DNA of 64,000 nucleotides from Gemmatimonadaceae bacterium (GTDB taxonomy: Bacteria > Gemmatimonadota > Gemmatimonadetes > Gemmatimonadales > Gemmatimonadaceae): the NCBI GenBank assembly GCA_019637445.1, contig JAHBVS010000001.1, positions 841,586 to 905,585 on the forward strand, written 5' to 3'. The translations under genes were made by a program, and so were the position numbers. The notes under the pieces were generated by a model, which was given only the letters and a program-made list of their open reading frames with translations, did no database searches and was not told where the DNA came from. How positions within the stretch are numbered: position 1 is the first letter of the stretch; each line of letters begins with the position of its first letter. Below, in pieces: positions 2-9,740 of the stretch.

Positions 2-2458
2 CGGGCGGACTGGGTGCAGCGAGGGCCGCGAGAGGTGCCGCTGGTGGGGCGGGCGGATCTGATGCGACGTCTTACCGGGCTGGTGGAGGCTGCGTGGCGT
101 GGGGAGGGTGGTGCGGTGATGCTGGTGGGTGCGCCGGGGATTGGGAAGACGCGGTTGGCGATGGAGGCGAGGGCGTATGCGGAGCTGAAGGGGATGCGGA
201 CGGTGGTGATAAGGGCGGAGGCGGGGATGGGGGAAGTGCCGCTGGCCGTACCACTTGCGATCGGAAGGGAGCTCCTTGCGACGGACGAAGTAAACGGGTC
301 GAGTCCCGCGACACTTGGACTGCTTCGTCGAATTGCTCGGACGACCGACGTCATGACGTTTATGGACTCAGACGACGTCCGCCCGTCATCTGACCAGTAC
401 GTTGCGGCGCTGTCGGATGCGCTCGTGGCATGCCAAAGCGCTCGCAGATACTTCGTTCTCGTCGAGGATGCGCATTGGATTGACGAGGACTCGCGGGAGG
501 TGCTTGCCGTCCTCGCCTCGCGTCTAGTGCAGAAGCGAATCTGCTTCGTGCTTACGAGCCGAAGCGCACACACCGAAGATGGGTCGCGACCCCATCCGGC
601 TTGGTCAACAGTTAGAGTTCCTCCCCTGGACCTAGAGAGCTCATCGCAGCTTGCTCAGCGCACAGCGCACGCGCATTCGTCAGCGCTTAGCACCGAGACG
701 GCAGGAGATATTGCCTCAGTCGGCGGCGGCAACCCTCTTTTCGTTCGCGAGCTTAGCCTGCAGGCGACGCGGCGGGAACCGAGCGTTGCGTTGCCCACAA
801 CTCTCGAGAGCGTCATTGGAGACCGCCTGAGTCGCCTCAGGCCTGCGCCGCTTGCTCTGCTGAGAACAGTCCTGCTGCTCGGGAGCGAGGCGACTGCGGC
901 TCGCGTTCGCGAGGTATCAAGCACTCCCGCGCCTGACTTCGGCAGCGCGATCGAGGCGCTCGAGGACGACGGAATCGTTACTGCCCACTCGGATGGCGTG
1001 CTGTCACTTCACGAGTGCTGGCGAAGGACATTAGCCGCCTCGCTCTCTCCAGCGACTGCTAGTGCGCTCTCGCTGCGCTGCGCCGACGCTTTGCTTGCCG
1101 AGGGTGAGAGCTCGCTGTCTGCGTCTGGACTTTGGAAGGCTTCCGACTTGTACAGAAGCGCGGGCATGTCCGCGAAGGCCCAGCTTCTCTGTGAAGCGGC
1201 GGCACGTCGCTACTATGACGCGGGTCTCATCGGCCAGAGCATCGACGTCTTTCGACGGGCAGTGGACATCTCACCGAACTCCGCGGCCGAGCCACGTGTT
1301 CGCATTGGGCTCGCGAGAGCACTACTCGCGGCAGGGAGACCGAAGGACTCGATCCAATCACTCAATCCGATACGAGCATCGGGGGCTCACGGCTTCGAGG
1401 ACACAAGAGAGACCGCGGCGAGCGCGCTCGCCCTTGAGACCGAGGCAAGTGCTAAGCTCTGCATGGAGCACAGCCGACTCCTTGCTGGAATGCTCGAGTC
1501 AGCTTCAGACAGGTCGATGTCGACAGAATTTCGGCTCGCTCTGTGTATGTCAGTCGCACGGCTAGCGGCGAATGCTCACGAGCATGCGATTGAGCGCAAG
1601 AACGCCGCTCTTGTCGACTCCCTGCGCTCCGAACTGCCGCGTAACCTGAGCGGACTGCTCGCGGCAATGATTTTCAGAACTGAGCATGGCCCAAGTGACG
1701 AGCTCTTTGAACTACATGCCACTGTCGAGACCGGCTTGTTCGGAGCCGTCGGCACAACCTCGTGGTGCGCGAGTCAAAGAATACTGGCCCACTCGCTGCG
1801 CCTTCACGGCTTCTGCGATCGAGCACTGTCGGCGGCGGCCCGAGCTCACTCAAGGGCGTCCCAAGCGGCGCTCCCCGATGACGCAGCGATTGCCGCCGAG
1901 CTCTGCGCGAACATTGCGCTCGACTACTGCAACCTTGAAGCGGCGCGCCAGTGGATCAACTCCGCCGAGCAAGATTCGCTTCGCCCCGACTACAGGCAAC
2001 GCAGCATAGCGCTGCGGCATCTCGACGACCGAATCCGAATCGACTCTGGAGACGTCCATCTCGACGAGTCATCGGCGCGCGAGCGTCTCGACGAGGTAAG
2101 GACCGACCCAGTTATCATCAGTCGAGTAACGCGACTCGCATCGTTGGCGATGCACGGCGCCATGGCAAGAATAGAGTCGATAGCGGTCGACTCCGCGACA
2201 GGTGCGGCCTCGGATGTTACCGGCCTGCTTGGACACTCCGCAGCAGACTACCCCATCGAGCTCCTTGCACGGACTGCAAAGCTACTACCCGGGCTTGTGG
2301 GAATCGCGGGTCTCAGCGAACGGCACGTCAGGGAAAGAGATCTGCGATTCATGCGCCCCCTGCCGCCATTCTATGCGGAGCTTCATGAGGCGCGACGGAT
2401 CCTAGCGAGACGAGGCGACAGCCAAGAACTCACCAGTAGTGCCTTCGATCGGCAATAG
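2..2458 (+). CDS. AAA/STAND-type ATPase regulator, 5' end outside window
   Basis: Large ATP-binding protein of the kind fused to transcriptional activators or signalling domains. Walker A is visible (GAPGIGKTR, about residue 39 counted from the GTG at 14) and Walker B is FVLVEDAHWID. The remaining roughly 500 residues are helical and TPR-like, with no recognisable DNA-binding domain at the C-terminus. The frame is open from base 2, so the gene probably starts upstream; a missing N-terminal effector or DNA-binding domain is likely but unseen. The first 77 codons from the GTG end in G in 61 cases, the next 77 in only 24, an abrupt change near base 244. The 3' end overlaps the convergent HD-GYP gene by 57 bp. 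Function beyond ATP-dependent signalling is not recognisable. Confidence 0.8.
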   Translation, partial: RADWVQRGPREVPLVGRADLMRRLTGLVEAAWRGEGGAVMLVGAPGIGKTRLAMEARAYAELKGMRTVVIRAEAGMGEVPLAVPLAIGRELLATDEVNGSSPATLGLLRRIARTTDVMTFMDSDDVRPSSDQYVAALSDALVACQSARRYFVLVEDAHWIDEDSREVLAVLASRLVQKRICFVLTSRSAHTEDGSRPHPAWSTVRVPPLDLESSSQLAQRTAHAHSSALSTETAGDIASVGGGNPLFVRELSLQATRREPSVALPTTLESVIGDRLSRLRPAPLALLRTVLLLGSEATAARVREVSSTPAPDFGSAIEALEDDGIVTAHSDGVLSLHECWRRTLAASLSPATASALSLRCADALLAEGESSLSASGLWKASDLYRSAGMSAKAQLLCEAAARRYYDAGLIGQSIDVFRRAVDISPNSAAEPRVRIGLARALLAAGRPKDSIQSLNPIRASGAHGFEDTRETAASALALETEASAKLCMEHSRLLAGMLESASDRSMSTEFRLALCMSVARLAANAHEHAIERKNAALVDSLRSELPRNLSGLLAAMIFRTEHGPSDELFELHATVETGLFGAVGTTSWCASQRILAHSLRLHGFCDRALSAAARAHSRASQAALPDDAAIAAELCANIALDYCNLEAARQWINSAEQDSLRPDYRQRSIALRHLDDRIRIDSGDVHLDESSARERLDEVRTDPVIISRVTRLASLAMHGAMARIESIAVDSATGAASDVTGLLGHSAADYPIELLARTAKLLPGLVGIAGLSERHVRERDLRFMRPLPPFYAELHEARRILARRGDSQELTSSAFDRQ

Positions 2459-3784
2459 CGGCGACAATCCGTGCACTGGGAACGCTATGGTCGCTGACTC
2501 AATTTCTCGCGTCAGCTCGCTCCACGCCGCCGGGGTCAACAAGCGCTCGCAAATTGCCGGGTCGAACTGCCGACCTCGCTCGCGATGGAGCTCCGACTTT
2601 ACGTCGTCGGGAGTGAGAGCAGCTCGGTATGGCCGGCTCGTTGTCATCGCATCGATCGTGTCTGCCAATGCAATGACGCGCGCTCCGAGAGGAATGTCCG
2701 CACCCTTCAGCGAGTGTGGATAGCCACGACCGTCCCACGACTCGTGGTGCGACTGCACGGCAGGAACAAGGTCGGCGAAGTGCGATACCCGTCCGACGAG
2801 CTCTGCGCTGCGCCCCGGGTGAGTCTTCATCACCTCGAACTCCTCGTCCGTCAGGCGACCAGGCTTCCTCAGAATCACCGCGAACTCTTCATGAATCTTC
2901 CCGACGTCGTGCAACAGAGCAGCAATCTCGGTTCTCTCCACAGCCTTTACGCCCATCCCGGCATGCTTCGCGATGACCCTGGCGTACCTGGCCACGCGTT
3001 GCGAATGACCAGACGTGTATGGATCTCGAGCCTCGATTGACGCCACCATCAACTGCAGCAGTTCCTCGTTCACCTTCTGCAACGCGAAGACCGTACGATA
3101 GAGCTGACGCATCCCGAGCATGGGCAGAGCGAGGATTGCGGACCAACCCGCACCTAGATTCGAATACGCAACCGCGAAGAATAGAATGAGCGGAAACGCG
3201 AGCGCGTCATAGAGCACCGAGCCACGCATGCTCCGCACCCAATGAGCCTTCGTGGGCGAGCCATCTGAGGCAGCGACAACGGTGCTTACCGCGAGCTTGT
3301 TGAGCGTGAAGTAGACCGCGACGAGCGCCAGGAAGGGGATCGCGCCCGGCGTATGGTTCAAAGCCGTCGAGCCTCCGAGCGCCAAGTAGGCACCGATTCC
3401 GAGCGCGACGGAGAAGATGTGCTGGGAAACGTTGAACACGAGCTTAACAAGCGGCCGCCGAAGGAAGAGCTCAGCGGCCAGCGTGCTAACCAGCACGCTC
3501 ACCAGCGCTGCAATGTTGGGCGCTACCAGTGCCGCGCTCAGGTATGGCAGAAACCCAATCGTGCCCAGAGTCGCCTGGGACGTTCGGTAGGCGAGTGCTG
3601 ACGCCAACACACCAAAGCCTGCGAAGAATGCGGCAGCGCGCCACTCGGCGATCGTGGGTTCGGGTCCCAACGCCAAGAAAGCCGCCAGAGCAACCAATGC
3701 TCCGACGGCGACCTTCTCGACAATGCTGCGTACCCGATGATCCATACTCAGTACTCCAATGACCGGAGGACCCCCCGTCCTCAT
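2402..3784 (-). CDS. Membrane-bound HD-GYP domain protein (predicted c-di-GMP phosphodiesterase)
   Basis: 460 residues. About five to six hydrophobic segments fill residues 25-235 and form an N-terminal membrane sensor. A cytoplasmic HD-GYP domain follows, with HSQRVARYA, LLHDVGKI and HHESWDGRGYP all present, so metal binding and c-di-GMP hydrolysis are expected. The start at 3784 has an AGGAAGG ribosome site nine bases upstream; an internal ATG at 3745 lacks one as good. It lies 21 nt after a 23-codon micro-ORF on the same strand, suggesting one transcript. Third-position base use is less GC-biased than in neighbours, hinting at transfer. The 3' end overlaps the convergent ATPase gene. Family assignment is firm; the sensed signal is unknown. 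Confidence 0.92.
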   Translation of the reverse strand: MRTGGPPVIGVLSMDHRVRSIVEKVAVGALVALAAFLALGPEPTIAEWRAAAFFAGFGVLASALAYRTSQATLGTIGFLPYLSAALVAPNIAALVSVLVSTLAAELFLRRPLVKLVFNVSQHIFSVALGIGAYLALGGSTALNHTPGAIPFLALVAVYFTLNKLAVSTVVAASDGSPTKAHWVRSMRGSVLYDALAFPLILFFAVAYSNLGAGWSAILALPMLGMRQLYRTVFALQKVNEELLQLMVASIEARDPYTSGHSQRVARYARVIAKHAGMGVKAVERTEIAALLHDVGKIHEEFAVILRKPGRLTDEEFEVMKTHPGRSAELVGRVSHFADLVPAVQSHHESWDGRGYPHSLKGADIPLGARVIALADTIDAMTTSRPYRAALTPDDVKSELHRERGRQFDPAICERLLTPAAWSELTREIESATIAFPVHGLSPLLPIEGTTGEFLAVASSR

Positions 3785-3805
3785 ACTGCAACACCTTCCT
3801 GCTAA

Positions 3806-3877
3806 TCAGCCCCAGTTGGCCGAATCACCCATCACAAGCGCGCAAAGCGCCACGATTACAGACGAGACATACGACAT
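3806..3877 (-). CDS. 23-residue hydrophobic micro-ORF upstream of HD-GYP gene
   Basis: An ATG at 3877 opens 23 codons ending in TGA at 3806. Residues 1-16 read MSYVSSVIVALCALVM and form a hydrophobic segment; the last seven, GDSANWG, are polar with a terminal Trp-Gly. The ribosome site GGAGGTGA at about 3886-3893 matches the anti-SD perfectly over eight bases, which is among the strongest seen in this window. Only 21 nt separate its stop from the HD-GYP start. There is no basic N-terminal patch, so it is not a classic signal peptide. It could be a secreted or membrane-embedded signalling peptide, a small regulator of the HD-GYP sensor, or a translation-coupling leader. Translation is well supported; function is unknown. 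Confidence 0.6.
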   Translation of the reverse strand: MSYVSSVIVALCALVMGDSANWG

Positions 3878-3903
3878 CGAGACTCACCTCCCGGCGACGA
3901 AAT

Positions 3904-3922
3904 CGCCCAGCAGTGCTGGGCG
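3904..3922. promoter_or_regulatory. 19-bp perfect palindrome, candidate operator
   Basis: The 9-bp arms CGCCCAGCA and TGCTGGGCG flank a single central G. It lies 27 bp before the micro-ORF start. On the minus strand it directly follows a possible -10 box (TAGGAT, 3925-3930), so it would sit over the transcription start. The one-base loop argues for a dimeric repressor or activator site rather than a terminator. The rest of 3923-4045 shows no convincing gene. Confidence 0.45.
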
Positions 3923-4045
3923 TCATCCTACGGTCGGCTCCGCTCGTGCGCCCCTAATGGACGCTACCGCTCATTTCCTCTCCGCTAAGAGAGAACGGGG
4001 GATACCTCTTTTGTTCCTCGGTTTAGTCTGGTCCTGCAACTCCTC

Positions 4046-4915
4046 CTAACGCGCCGGCGACCGACGATCCTCCACCACGGGAGCACCGCCCACCGCCTTC
4101 GACGTCACCCATCGGTTCGTCGCGTCCAACACGGCCAATACCGCCGCCGTCTCGGCGCTCTCCTTCACTTCACAGCTGCCAGTGAGGAGCTGCGACTCAC
4201 GTCCGTCGCGCGCCACCACCCCGGCAAACACAAACTCACGGTCAAAGGCCGTGATCGTCTTCACACCCTCGAGCGAGAACACGCCGGCCATCGCACCCGC
4301 CGTCGCCAGGGCCGTCAGGGCCGCCCGCGCCGCCACATCCACGCGGCTGCGGTCGCTCTGCATCCCCTCCTCCGCCTCGCCCACATACTGCTCGGCGCCA
4401 ACCCGCAACGTCACCCGACAGGTCACCCCGCGCGCCCGCGATCCCCGGACCTCCACGTCCTCGAAGTAGATCGCCCGCGCGTGCGCCTTCACCGCTGCCG
4501 TCGTCGCCGCATCAATCACCTGCGTTTCCGTCGGGGTCGGACGACGTGCCGTCGCCGCCACCGAGATCTTCCGATGGTCCACCCGCAACCCGAGCTGCGC
4601 CATCAACGCGCTCTCGATGTTGCGCACCACAGACTTCGCCGGCGTATCACCCGCCACCAACACGTGGATCGCGTCGATGCTCCCCGTCTGGTTCGCCGTG
4701 ATCCGCACCGACACGACATCCTGCAACGAGGCAATCAGCTCTTCCGCACGCTGCAACGGCAGAACGCTCCCCGCGATCGGAGAGAGGGGAGTGTTCGACT
4801 GTGGCTGCTGACCAGACACGGCAACTCGCGTGGTACGAGGTGGGACCCCAGGACTCACTGGTTCTCCGTGCGGATGCCGGCAGCAGCCCCGCGCGGCAAC
4901 CCGCCTGTGATTCAA
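4046..4915 (-). CDS. Conserved protein of unknown function, two alpha/beta domains
   Basis: Up to 289 residues, but the first 30 (Arg/Pro/Cys-rich) look untranslated; a GTG beginning VSGQQPQ at about residue 33 is a plausible start. Residues 55-120 form a compact domain with a region reading SVRITANQTGSIDAIHVLV and then VVRNIESALMAQLGL and VDHRKISVA. I recognise this as a recurring uncharacterised pattern in Gram-positive and Gemmatimonadota-like proteins. Residues 130-275 form a second domain with several beta-strands and an Ala-rich helix. No catalytic motif or membrane segment is seen. It lies 53 bp after the sigma-54 activator gene on the same strand and may be co-transcribed. Confidence 0.75.
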   Translation of the reverse strand: MNHRRVAARGCCRHPHGEPVSPGVPPRTTRVAVSGQQPQSNTPLSPIAGSVLPLQRAEELIASLQDVVSVRITANQTGSIDAIHVLVAGDTPAKSVVRNIESALMAQLGLRVDHRKISVAATARRPTPTETQVIDAATTAAVKAHARAIYFEDVEVRGSRARGVTCRVTLRVGAEQYVGEAEEGMQSDRSRVDVAARAALTALATAGAMAGVFSLEGVKTITAFDREFVFAGVVARDGRESQLLTGSCEVKESAETAAVLAVLDATNRWVTSKAVGGAPVVEDRRSPAR

Positions 4916-4968
4916 GATGTCGATAAACGATTCAGTTAGGAAGGGAGTGACCTAGGCAAAGGCCGAAA

Positions 4969-6498
4969 TCAGTCCTCTAACTGTTCAGGAACTTGATACT
5001 CTTTGAGCTTCCGATAGAGGGTTCGCTCCCCTATCGCGAGAATCTCTGCCGCTTTACGACGATTGCCACGCGTTTCACGCAACGCCGCCACAATCGCCGC
5101 CCGCTCGATCTCCGCCATCGTCATCCCCGGCGTGATCGTCACGGTATTCGGCGGCGGAGGCGCTGGCGGCTCCAGCGCGCCGGCCCCAATCGACCCGCCA
5201 GAGCCCGGAAACCCGCTGACCTCACGGTCAGAACGCTCGTCCACCCGACGGCGCAGCTCCTCAAGCTGCAGCTTCATCTCCACCAGGCTCCGGACGATGA
5301 ACTCCAGCTCCCGACCCTCGGCGCGGCTCTCCTCACGCACGATCGGCCCGATCGGCACGGGCAACAGGCGGTCGGCCCCGCCCTCTCGAATGGCACTGGG
5401 GATGTCGGCCAGCCCGATCTCACGACCGGTCGCCAGCACGACCATGCTCTCGATCAGGTTCCGGAGCTCGCGGACGTTGCCCGGCCAGGAGTAGTTCACC
5501 AGCGCCTGCATCGCCTCGGCCGATATTCCGTGGAACTCACGCGAATGCTGCTCGGCGAACTCCTGCACGAAACGCCGCACCAGCAGCGGGATGTCGCTGC
5601 GCCGCTCGCGCAGCGGCGGCAGGTAGATGCGCAGGACGTTGAGTCTATAGTAGAGGTCTGAGCGGAAGGACCCGCGCTGCACGGACTCGCGCAGCGGACG
5701 GTTGGTCGCCGCCACCACGCGCACGTCCACCGGGATGGACTGCGTGCCGCCCACGCGCGTGACCTCACGCTCTTCCAACACGCGCAACAGCTTGACCTGC
5801 GTGCTGGGCGGGATCTCGCCAATCTCGTCGAGGAACAGCGTGCCGCCGTCCGCCAACTCGAAACGTCCGATGCGACGCTCGGCGGCGCCGGTGAAGGAGC
5901 CCTTCTCGTGGCCGAACAGCTCGCTCTCGAGCAGCGTCTCCGGCAGCGCGCCCACGTTCACGGCAATGAACGGCTTGCTGCGCCGCGGCGAAAGCTTGTG
6001 AATGGCGCGCGCGACCAGCTCCTTGCCCGTGCCGCTCTCGCCCTCGATGAGCACCGTGCTCGACACCGGCGCCATCTGGCCAATAGCCACCAACACTTCG
6101 CGGACCGCCTCGCTCTCGCCATATAGCCCCGTCTCGCGCGCGACGCGCTGACGGTCGAGCAGTTCGTTCACACTCTGCCGCAGCGCCTCCGGGCTCACCG
6201 GCTTGTTGATGACCTCGGCGAAGCCAATCGCCTTGAGCTTCAGCTCCAGCTGGGGATCGCCGATGTCGGCCAGGCCGAGCACGGCGGCGCCGCCCCAGAG
6301 CTGGTCGCGTACGATGGCCAGAGTCTGCGGGTCCAGCAGGTTGCCGGTGAACACGATGACGTCCGGCCGCGCCTTGCGCACCTCGGATGGCAGGTCGTCC
6401 AACGGCGACACCACCGCGGTGCGCACGTCGTCGGCCTCGAGCAGCGCGTTGAGGCGTACCGCCGGCTCGACGTCGGCAAGCGTAATGAGAACGGTCAT
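4969..6498 (-). CDS. Sigma-54-dependent activator with pseudo-receiver N-terminus
   Basis: NtrC-type activator of 509 residues. Residues 1-115 resemble a receiver fold, but the acidic pocket is missing and the phospho-acceptor position is Thr in PDVIVFTG; the conserved Lys is kept (INKPVSPE). Control by phosphorylation is therefore unlikely. The central AAA+ domain has Walker A GESGTGKE, the sigma-54 loop as GSFTGA, Walker B and the R-finger region. A Pro-rich linker leads to a Fis-type helix-turn-helix (TRGNRRKAAEILAIGERTLY). The start at ATG 6498 is preceded by AAGGAG; a TTG at 6525 would add nine residues. It follows gcvT closely on the same strand. Confidence 0.92.
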   Translation of the reverse strand: MTVLITLADVEPAVRLNALLEADDVRTAVVSPLDDLPSEVRKARPDVIVFTGNLLDPQTLAIVRDQLWGGAAVLGLADIGDPQLELKLKAIGFAEVINKPVSPEALRQSVNELLDRQRVARETGLYGESEAVREVLVAIGQMAPVSSTVLIEGESGTGKELVARAIHKLSPRRSKPFIAVNVGALPETLLESELFGHEKGSFTGAAERRIGRFELADGGTLFLDEIGEIPPSTQVKLLRVLEEREVTRVGGTQSIPVDVRVVAATNRPLRESVQRGSFRSDLYYRLNVLRIYLPPLRERRSDIPLLVRRFVQEFAEQHSREFHGISAEAMQALVNYSWPGNVRELRNLIESMVVLATGREIGLADIPSAIREGGADRLLPVPIGPIVREESRAEGRELEFIVRSLVEMKLQLEELRRRVDERSDREVSGFPGSGGSIGAGALEPPAPPPPNTVTITPGMTMAEIERAAIVAALRETRGNRRKAAEILAIGERTLYRKLKEYQVPEQLED

Positions 6499-6533
6499 CG
6501 GGGATGCGTCTCCTTCGGGTGGCAACAGCCGCG

Positions 6534-7868: not shown

Positions 7869-9740
7869 GTGACTTGGACTCAAGCAACCGACTCCGTGCT
7901 CGAACTGCTGCTGGCCAGCGCACTCTCCGTCGTCTCCAGCTTCTCCAGCATCGCCGCGCTCCGACTGCGCCGTGCGGTGCGTTCCCTCGAGTCGCGACAG
8001 ACCGCCGCCGACGCCGAGCCGCGCTCCGTGAGCAGCGCCGATCCCTCGGCGTCCTGGCATACGCTGCCGCTGCTCGCCGCGCGCGACGCCCTGTGGGACT
8101 GGGACCTGACCACGGACACGATGCGCTTCACGCCGCGCTGGCGCGAGATCCTCGGCGGTCGGGCGGACGAGGTCACCGCGTCCTCCGACGAGTGGTTCTC
8201 CCGCGTGCATCCCGCCGACCTGACCCAGGCGCGCGTGGACGTCGCCGCGCAGACCAACGGTACGCAGGTGCGCTTCGAGAGCGAACACCGCATCCGTCAC
8301 GACTCCGGGCGATGGATCACGGTGCACTGGGTGGGGACGATCCTCCGCGACGAGACCGGCCGTGCACATCGCGTCGCGGGCAGCGTGCGCGACACCACGG
8401 CGCAGCGGCTGGCCGAGGAACAGGCGCGGCGCGAGGCGTTCTACGACTCGCTCACCGGCCTGCCCAACCGCGCCCTCGCGCGCGACCTGCTGCAGCGGGC
8501 CATCCGGCGCACGCGCCGTCAGGGCGAGCGCCGCTTCGCCGCACTGATCGTCGACGTCGACCGCTTCTCACACCACGCCGACGCGCTGGGCTTCAGCGCC
8601 GCCGACGAACTGTTACGCGCGATTTCCCGCCGCCTCTCACACACGGTGCGCCCCGGCGACGTTGTGGCGCGACTTGAGAACGATGTCTTCCTGCTGCTGC
8701 TCGACACCATCCACGAGGAAGCCGAAGCGCGGCAGGTGGCCGTTCGCGTCCTCGCGGCCTTCGAGAAGCCGGTGGAGGTGCTGACCCACGCGGTGCAAGT
8801 GAGCGTCAGCATCGGTGTCGCGATGCACGACCAAGCCTTCGACACGCCCGCCGACTACATCCGCAACGCCGAGATCGCCACGACGGCCGCGAAGCGGGTG
8901 GGAGGCGCGCGTCAGGCCAGCTTCTTGACGGCGATGCGCGAGGACGTGAAGCACCGCGCCTCGCTCGAACTCGACCTCGCCGGCGCCATCGCCCGCAGCG
9001 AACTGCGCCTCTGGTACCAGCCGGTGTTCTCGATCGACGAGCCGGAACCACAGCTCGCGGGCTTCGAGGCCTTGGTGCGCTGGTCGCATCCGCAGCGCGG
9101 CCTGCTCGGCGCGCACGAGTTCGTCTCGCTCGCCGAGGAGACGGGCGCCATCGTGCCGCTCGGCGCCTGGGTGATGAGCGAGGCCTGCAAGCACGTCGCG
9201 CCGATGGGAAGGGACGGCGGGCATCGGCCCTGGGTCTCGGTGAACATCGCCGCGCGGCAGCTCGCCGATGAAGCACTGGCCGACCTGGTGGATCGCGCCG
9301 TGCACGAGTCGTCGATCGACCACGCGCGCCTGCGGCTCGAGGTCACGGAGAACGTGATCCTCGCCAACGAGGAGGTCGCGCGTGGGACCCTGGCGATCCT
9401 GCGCGGGCGCGGGCACACGATCCTGATGGACGACTTCGGCACCGGCCACGCCTCGCTGAGCTACCTGCATCGGCTGCCCATCGGCGCGATCAAGATCGAC
9501 CGTTACTTCGTCGGGCGCATGGACGAGAGCTCGGAGTGCCAGGAGATCGTGCGCTCGGTGGTCGCGCTGGCGCGCTCACTCGGCATGGACGCCGTGGCAG
9601 AGGGCGTGGAGCGGCCGCAGCATGTCTCGATGCTGCGCGAGATGGGCTGCCGCTACGTGCAAGGATTCCTGTTGGGCCAGCCGGTGCCACCCGAGGAGAC
9701 GGCGCGCTTCGTTTCGGCCCCTCCCGCGTTCGCGAGCTGA
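7869..9740 (+). CDS. PAS-GGDEF-EAL protein, predicted c-di-GMP phosphodiesterase
   Basis: 623 residues from a GTG start. One hydrophobic N-terminal segment (about 10-30) is followed by a PAS domain of PAS_3 type (residues 70-180), a GGDEF domain (about 190-350) and an EAL domain (about 370-615). The cyclase signature is degenerate: RLENDVF replaces RLGGDEF, so synthesis of c-di-GMP is not expected. The EAL side is intact: FEALVRW, EVTEN, DDFGTGHASLSYL, KIDRYFV, AEGVE and QGFLLGQP. The protein most likely degrades c-di-GMP, with the GGDEF-like part acting as a regulatory GTP-binding module. Monocistronic and divergent from gcvT. Confidence 0.95.
   Translation: MTWTQATDSVLELLLASALSVVSSFSSIAALRLRRAVRSLESRQTAADAEPRSVSSADPSASWHTLPLLAARDALWDWDLTTDTMRFTPRWREILGGRADEVTASSDEWFSRVHPADLTQARVDVAAQTNGTQVRFESEHRIRHDSGRWITVHWVGTILRDETGRAHRVAGSVRDTTAQRLAEEQARREAFYDSLTGLPNRALARDLLQRAIRRTRRQGERRFAALIVDVDRFSHHADALGFSAADELLRAISRRLSHTVRPGDVVARLENDVFLLLLDTIHEEAEARQVAVRVLAAFEKPVEVLTHAVQVSVSIGVAMHDQAFDTPADYIRNAEIATTAAKRVGGARQASFLTAMREDVKHRASLELDLAGAIARSELRLWYQPVFSIDEPEPQLAGFEALVRWSHPQRGLLGAHEFVSLAEETGAIVPLGAWVMSEACKHVAPMGRDGGHRPWVSVNIAARQLADEALADLVDRAVHESSIDHARLRLEVTENVILANEEVARGTLAILRGRGHTILMDDFGTGHASLSYLHRLPIGAIKIDRYFVGRMDESSECQEIVRSVVALARSLGMDAVAEGVERPQHVSMLREMGCRYVQGFLLGQPVPPEETARFVSAPPAFAS

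Follow-up and report, generated by a model that had tools for sequence, protein, structure and literature searches.

In the SHP/Rgg and Phr/Rap systems, a tiny gene adjoins that of its regulator, the N-terminus of the encoded peptide is hydrophobic or signal-like, and the active part is C-terminal. The locus described here, a micro-ORF preceding a membrane HD-GYP gene in a 64-kb stretch of gemmatimonad DNA that was analysed as a whole (the window), resembles the SHP/Rgg, Phr/PhrK and Phr/Rap pheromones in placing a tiny gene with a hydrophobic or signal-like N-terminus beside a regulator. The SHP and Phr peptides, however, act on cytoplasmic regulators, whereas the micro-ORF is enclosed by a structured RNA and adjoins the gene of a membrane HD-GYP protein, and its NCBIfam similarity falls below the cut-off. 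The adjacency of a peptide gene to that of a multi-pass membrane receptor recalls AgrD/AgrC, from which the locus differs in having no cyclic peptide features and an HD-GYP rather than a kinase output; no AgrB-like processing gene was seen in the neighbourhoods read. With the ermC and tnaC leader peptides it shares a short ORF that has a strong ribosome site and lies in a leader that folds, upstream of the controlled gene, but its composition is signal-peptide-like, and the helix closing its RNA (P1) leaves the ribosome site of the next gene unmasked in Clostridia. The downstream protein corresponds to the MASE9 (PF20972) HD-GYP phosphodiesterases in domain order and catalytic residues, but is accompanied by its own peptide gene and RNA. 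Its membrane domain has a predicted six-helix fold that may resemble that of the ECF S-components (RibU, FolT, BioY, ThiT and NikM), though it is fused to a signalling enzyme and no sequence-level family match was found.

No family in Rfam, Pfam or NCBIfam describes the unit, and a literature search on MASE9 with HD-GYP, Gemmatimonas with HD-GYP, DUF5317, and clostridial peptide pheromones with HD-GYP found no paper, preprints and many subscription papers being beyond its reach. The unit is hard to spot in current annotation because its peptides are very short and match no family model. Ligands are known for few membrane HD-GYP sensors, and we know of none for MASE9; a peptide gene kept next to a single receptor family in both phyla is a directly testable ligand candidate. 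If the peptide is the ligand, peptide signalling would be tied to c-di-GMP breakdown and, through it, to whether cells live motile or attached. The RNA may represent a new structured family, in which a coding micro-ORF inside the closing helix makes an unusual layout.

The micro-ORF and its reading frame

The 23-residue ORF and its ribosome site, which a first-pass annotation of the window had pointed out, were both found exactly as described (Table 1), and among all ATGs of the 64-kb window only the micro-ORF start has GGAGGTGA within 16 nt upstream. The 21-nt gap to the HD-GYP gene given in that annotation holds for ATG 3784, but the first 13 residues from this ATG are absent from relatives and its G already lies inside an RNA helix arm, while ATG 3745 has its own GGAG and aligns with the HD-GYP starts of relatives. 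Judged from this alignment, the HD-GYP gene probably starts at 3745 rather than 3784, and with the conserved start the distance from the micro-ORF stop becomes 60 nt instead of 21.

Table 1. Coordinates of the unit and its upstream gene in the window
Feature	Positions	Strand	Remarks
Upstream gene, syntenic	4046..4915	minus	Predicted LeuA-type regulatory domain
Whole RNA element, P1 to P1', with the micro-ORF inside	3770..4003	minus	No Rfam match
P1 5' arm, ATCCCCCGTTCTC, closing the RNA around the micro-ORF	3991..4003	minus	True arms score above swapped ones
Hairpin P2, competing with inner P1	3975..3995	minus	From the fold; sequence variable in relatives
Hairpin P3	3948..3964	minus	From the fold
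Conserved core, GAGCGGAGCCGACC, 5' side of helix P4, facing the ribosome site	3932..3945	minus	
Hairpin P5	3905..3922	minus	From the fold
Ribosome site of the micro-ORF, GGGAGGTGA	3884..3892	minus	Paired in helix P4
Micro-ORF, 23 codons, MSYVSSVIVALCALVMGDSANWG	3806..3877	minus	Hydrophobic body and GDxxxW-type tail; frame and Trp tail conserved
P1 3' arm (P1'), GAGGACGGGGGGT, past the micro-ORF stop and before the HD-GYP start at 3745	3770..3782	minus	
Membrane HD-GYP protein, MASE9 sensor and HD-GYP phosphodiesterase	2402..3745	minus	Longest ORF starts at 3784; Pfam MASE9 and HD_5

The first-pass annotation had proposed testing frame conservation in the regions that precede related HD-GYP genes; in this test, the frame proved to be kept, in two phyla. 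Within close groups, pN/pS was 0.48 in the true frame versus 0.83 and 1.63 in the other two, ratios that are rough because synonymous sites are near saturation, and the second codon positions showed the least change. A Trp was present among the last three residues in 97 of 103 distinct gemmatimonad peptides versus 18 of 202 control ORFs, the latter being ORFs of 14–28 codons from the window; in most peptides it is encoded by the final codon or the one before, without being invariant. The C-terminal tail often follows [G/A][D/E]xxxWx in Gemmatimonadota and is (G)A|GYTWI-like in Clostridia, an acidic residue stands six from the C-terminus in 38 of 75 peptides, and Pro is nearly missing. N-terminal Lys/Arg occurs in 9 of the 103 gemmatimonad peptides, which are mostly devoid of a clear cleavage motif and some of which, at 14–16 residues, are short for a membrane span. 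Selection on the micro-ORF as a peptide is well supported by these sequence comparisons.

Distribution of the unit and its leader RNA

Where the first-pass annotation had proposed a new two-gene unit, the combination of peptide and HD-GYP genes indeed turned out to be conserved, but the structured RNA around the micro-ORF had been overlooked. What the compared loci support well is a conserved unit of a structured leader RNA, a hydrophobic micro-ORF of 14–39 codons and a membrane HD-GYP gene. It was tabulated at 105 Gemmatimonadota loci with 103 distinct peptides, and orthologues from the same genus and the same family carry the micro-ORF at the equivalent position, preceded by the same ribosome site and ending in a tail of the same type. 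The search pattern, composed of the RNA core and the micro-ORF ribosome site, occurs in a single copy in the genome of origin, namely the window copy, and has true copies across several families of the class, in which 110 of 246 genomes possess a MASE9-type N-terminal domain. Among the sensor loci outside the set retrieved by the RNA pattern, the micro-ORF was found in 32 of 36 upstream regions, one of the 32 (L213) being less clear.

The other four of these 36 sensor-HD-GYP copies have neither the micro-ORF nor a recognisable RNA, namely three divergent ones in genome G107 (L205–L207) and one in G099 (L208); they are natural exceptions and informative on the receptor acting alone. Apparent second copies of the unit in G118, G093 and G251 were rejected as probable assembly overlaps, since they lie at contig ends or close to them. 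Units of gemmatimonad type, identical to gemmatimonad ones or almost so, were also observed on contigs labelled Chthoniobacterales, Acidobacteria or Actinomycetales (L132, L146, L133 and L166), which are probably misbinned or mislabelled.

Outside Gemmatimonadota, the micro-ORF and P1 accompany the same sensor family at at least 17 loci, two on plasmids and at least 15 on contigs. Nearly all of these belong to Bacillota (Clostridia), with one labelled Atribacteria and one actinobacterium. A recognisable RNA core is present in all those listed, the divergent core of L108 excepted. Against plasmids, one N-terminal domain query gave no match and another gave two Clostridia plasmid matches. Among the matches listed, HD-GYP genes matching over the HD end alone have no such unit, and it is also absent where part of the sensor is matched in Brevibacillus gelatini and at some actinobacterial loci, so that the unit marks part of the sensor family. 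The clostridial peptides are mutually alike (MKKIVAVLISLLALILASGAGYTWI, MKKALLVLLSLITLVLASGAHLSWV, MKRLVSVLLALLALVLAGGANMQIGW), consisting of N-terminal Lys/Arg, a hydrophobic core, LASGA-like small residues and then a 5–6-residue Trp tail; by this composition they resemble signal peptides to which a short Trp tail is attached. One of them matched Phr_nterm, the secreted pheromone signal, with an E-value of 0.006 and 17 bits, below the cut-off of 25, and the window peptide gave no match to the NCBIfam pheromone families. In the Natranaerobius locus (L102, 1499–2790), the HD-GYP gene seems split, and a 65-residue hypothetical ORF overlaps the annotated HD-GYP start. A small membrane protein often comes next after HD-GYP in the clostridial copies, the annotated one being the DUF5317 of the Natranaerobius plasmid; proteins like it lie downstream of HD-GYP in L105, L109–L116, L138 and L140, and none does in the window.

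Helix P1 is formed by a C-rich arm upstream of the micro-ORF and a G-rich arm past its stop, mostly 0–15 nt away from it, and encloses both the RNA and the micro-ORF. With kinship ignored, the true P1 arms of gemmatimonads scored 28.9 versus 21.3 for arms swapped between genomes, and 10,000 permutations never exceeded 23.5; likewise with kinship ignored, the non-gemmatimonad set scored 34.2 versus 20.1, with a permutation maximum of 27.3. P1 pairing was kept despite sequence change, as in CCCCCTCGG/CCGAGGGGG, GGAGCCCCCG/CGGGGGCTCC and TCCCGTTCCC/GGGAACGGGA. P4 is formed by the core GAGCGGAGC and the ribosome-site region of the micro-ORF, in many gemmatimonads as GCG-GA-GCC-AA-CC with GG-GA-GGU-GA-CGC, and compensatory changes were found here as well (GATATAGC/GCTATATC, GTTTGCC/GGCAAAC and GGTCTC/GAGACC). 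The window RNA folds better than its shuffles (z −2.4), and the Rfam covariance models, that of the c-di-GMP riboswitch included, yielded zero matches at E-values up to 1 in window positions 3500–5000 and five relatives. Across the compared loci, conservation of the unit, of the frame and of the RNA is well supported.

The predicted receptor

By signature and fold, the window HD-GYP protein is a predicted c-di-GMP phosphodiesterase. It matches Pfam HD_5 with an E-value of 3.9e-33 and carries the HD-GYP signature (HDxGK, HH, DGxGYP), of which H323, D324, G326, K327, H377, H378 and G385 are invariant and D382, G383, Y386 and P387 nearly invariant in 70 aligned rows, and the model of the domain reaches Z 25.8 to 4mcw. 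Its MASE9 match scores 29.5 bits, above the cut-off of 24.3, and some relatives score below it.

Because the window frame runs through the micro-ORF stop into HD-GYP, peptide and receptor were modelled as one chain, using an alignment without one row, from a plasmid record. This read-through chain gave a pLDDT of 88.9 and a pTM of 0.79, with a pLDDT of about 53–56 in the peptide part. S-components of ECF transporters bind small ligands, and those of differing ligands align to model residues 74–245, i.e. the sensor (TmRibU with Z 13.4, FolT, BioY and ThiT); for NikM (Z 13.9), the match starts with model residue 20 and NikM residue 1. The resemblance of the membrane domain to S-components is a prediction from the model, in which many of them score Z 10–14 where unrelated helical bundles reach about 14, and the Foldseek E-value to TmRibU is 0.14. 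Residues 19–22 of the peptide tail form a strand in the model and residues 103–106, adjoining the conserved GSIxF region, form another. The start of the NikM match suggests, as a lead and not a result, that the tail sits where NikM's own N-terminus sits; in view of the peptide pLDDT, this placement may result from the tethering. Two membrane-domain Asn, N149 and N193 in model numbering, are invariant or nearly so in both phyla.

Proposed mechanism, rival readings and flanking genes

As the sequences show, the leader RNA folds into an element closed by P1 with the micro-ORF inside, its core pairs with the ribosome site through P4, and the micro-ORF stands directly before one membrane HD-GYP gene; from these features, a mechanism can be proposed. 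When the RNA admits a ribosome, a short hydrophobic peptide would be made and would enter the membrane or be exported; its C-terminal 5–6 residues, cut free or tethered, would then bind a pocket of the S-component-like membrane domain, and this binding would switch the c-di-GMP hydrolysis of the receptor. In Gemmatimonadota, peptide translation is probably also coupled to receptor translation. We infer membrane entry, release, binding and the effect on c-di-GMP; the signal-peptide look of the clostridial sequences and the modelled S-component-like sensor fold both fit the idea of a peptide ligand, and the 23-codon micro-ORF may encode the ligand of the neighbouring HD-GYP enzyme, be it as an autoinducer, a membrane partner or an inhibitor, the three roles named in the first-pass annotation. 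The reading we favour, in which the peptide is exported or held in the membrane and its Trp tail controls the c-di-GMP hydrolysis of the neighbouring protein, with the RNA setting the peptide output, has in our estimate an even chance of being right. Only tentatively, and leaning somewhat against it, do we put forward the wider claim of a new class of bacterial communication, in which the Trp tail of about 5–6 residues from an RNA-controlled micro-gene would be the ligand of an S-component-like, c-di-GMP-destroying sensor, old enough to be common to Gemmatimonadota and Clostridia.

In the main rival reading, the micro-ORF would instead be a regulatory leader only, the translation or stalling of which switches the RNA and sets HD-GYP expression, with the released peptide having no job and the Trp near the stop serving as a stalling or amino-acid-sensing signal. 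The position of the micro-ORF, the P4 pairing with its ribosome site, the closeness of P1' to its stop and the Trp at the last or second last codon of most peptides all speak for such a role, and the conserved RNA around the ORF would also suit a purely regulatory one. So does the scarcity of SD-like sites at gemmatimonad HD-GYP starts (2 of 60), owing to which HD-GYP translation is likely coupled to that of the micro-ORF. The clostridial HD-GYP genes, however, mostly have their own SD outside P1, which rules out that P1 generally masks the ribosome site of HD-GYP, and a T-run of at least four follows P1' in a minority of units (9 of 72 and 5 of 17, and not in the window), ruling out a general terminator or an attenuating leader with an intrinsic terminator. 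Moreover, the ribosomal tunnel holds 30–40 residues, and since peptides of 14–26 residues would still be inside it at the stop, a stalling device would gain nothing from signal-peptide features. Both these features and the SD difference between Gemmatimonadota and Clostridia speak against a role as leader only without being decisive, and we regard such a role as rather unlikely.

The hydrophobic bodies, the little cleavage signal in Gemmatimonadota and the strict linkage to one receptor family would equally be expected of a micro-protein that remains in the membrane as a structural or inhibitory partner of HD-GYP rather than a diffusible or cleaved signal. Since peptide length spans 14–39 residues and the clostridial peptides resemble cleavable signal peptides, we think such a subunit distinctly unlikely, although it overlaps with the signal reading in that a tail still tethered might work within the pocket. 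An RNA that is itself the active part, as a riboswitch or a dual-function small RNA closed by P1 with the peptide secondary, would account for the strong P1 and for the motifs AGCGRAGC and TAGCGR being conserved across phyla, but is very improbable in view of the selection on the reading frame, the kept Trp, the missing Rfam match and the fact that no RNA copy without the micro-ORF was seen. Short ORFs are common, and one could arise by chance in a GC-rich leader; here, the conservation in more than 100 loci and the retention of frame, ribosome site and C-terminal Trp by relatives make the micro-ORF more than chance, and the kept frame refutes this explanation to the point that it is virtually negligible.

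The synteny extends further upstream, with homologues of the preceding gene (Table 1) standing before most clostridial copies too, i.e. in both phyla. Searched against Pfam and NCBIfam, this gene has no family match; in the model of its product, a region resembling the LeuA/citramalate synthase allosteric regulatory domain (Z 10.7) follows a small CDF/PrgK-like domain. A PAS-GGDEF-EAL gene (7869–9740, plus strand) sits some 4 kb away from HD-GYP and, together with a sigma-54 activator-like gene (4969–6525), makes up a small c-di-GMP neighbourhood.
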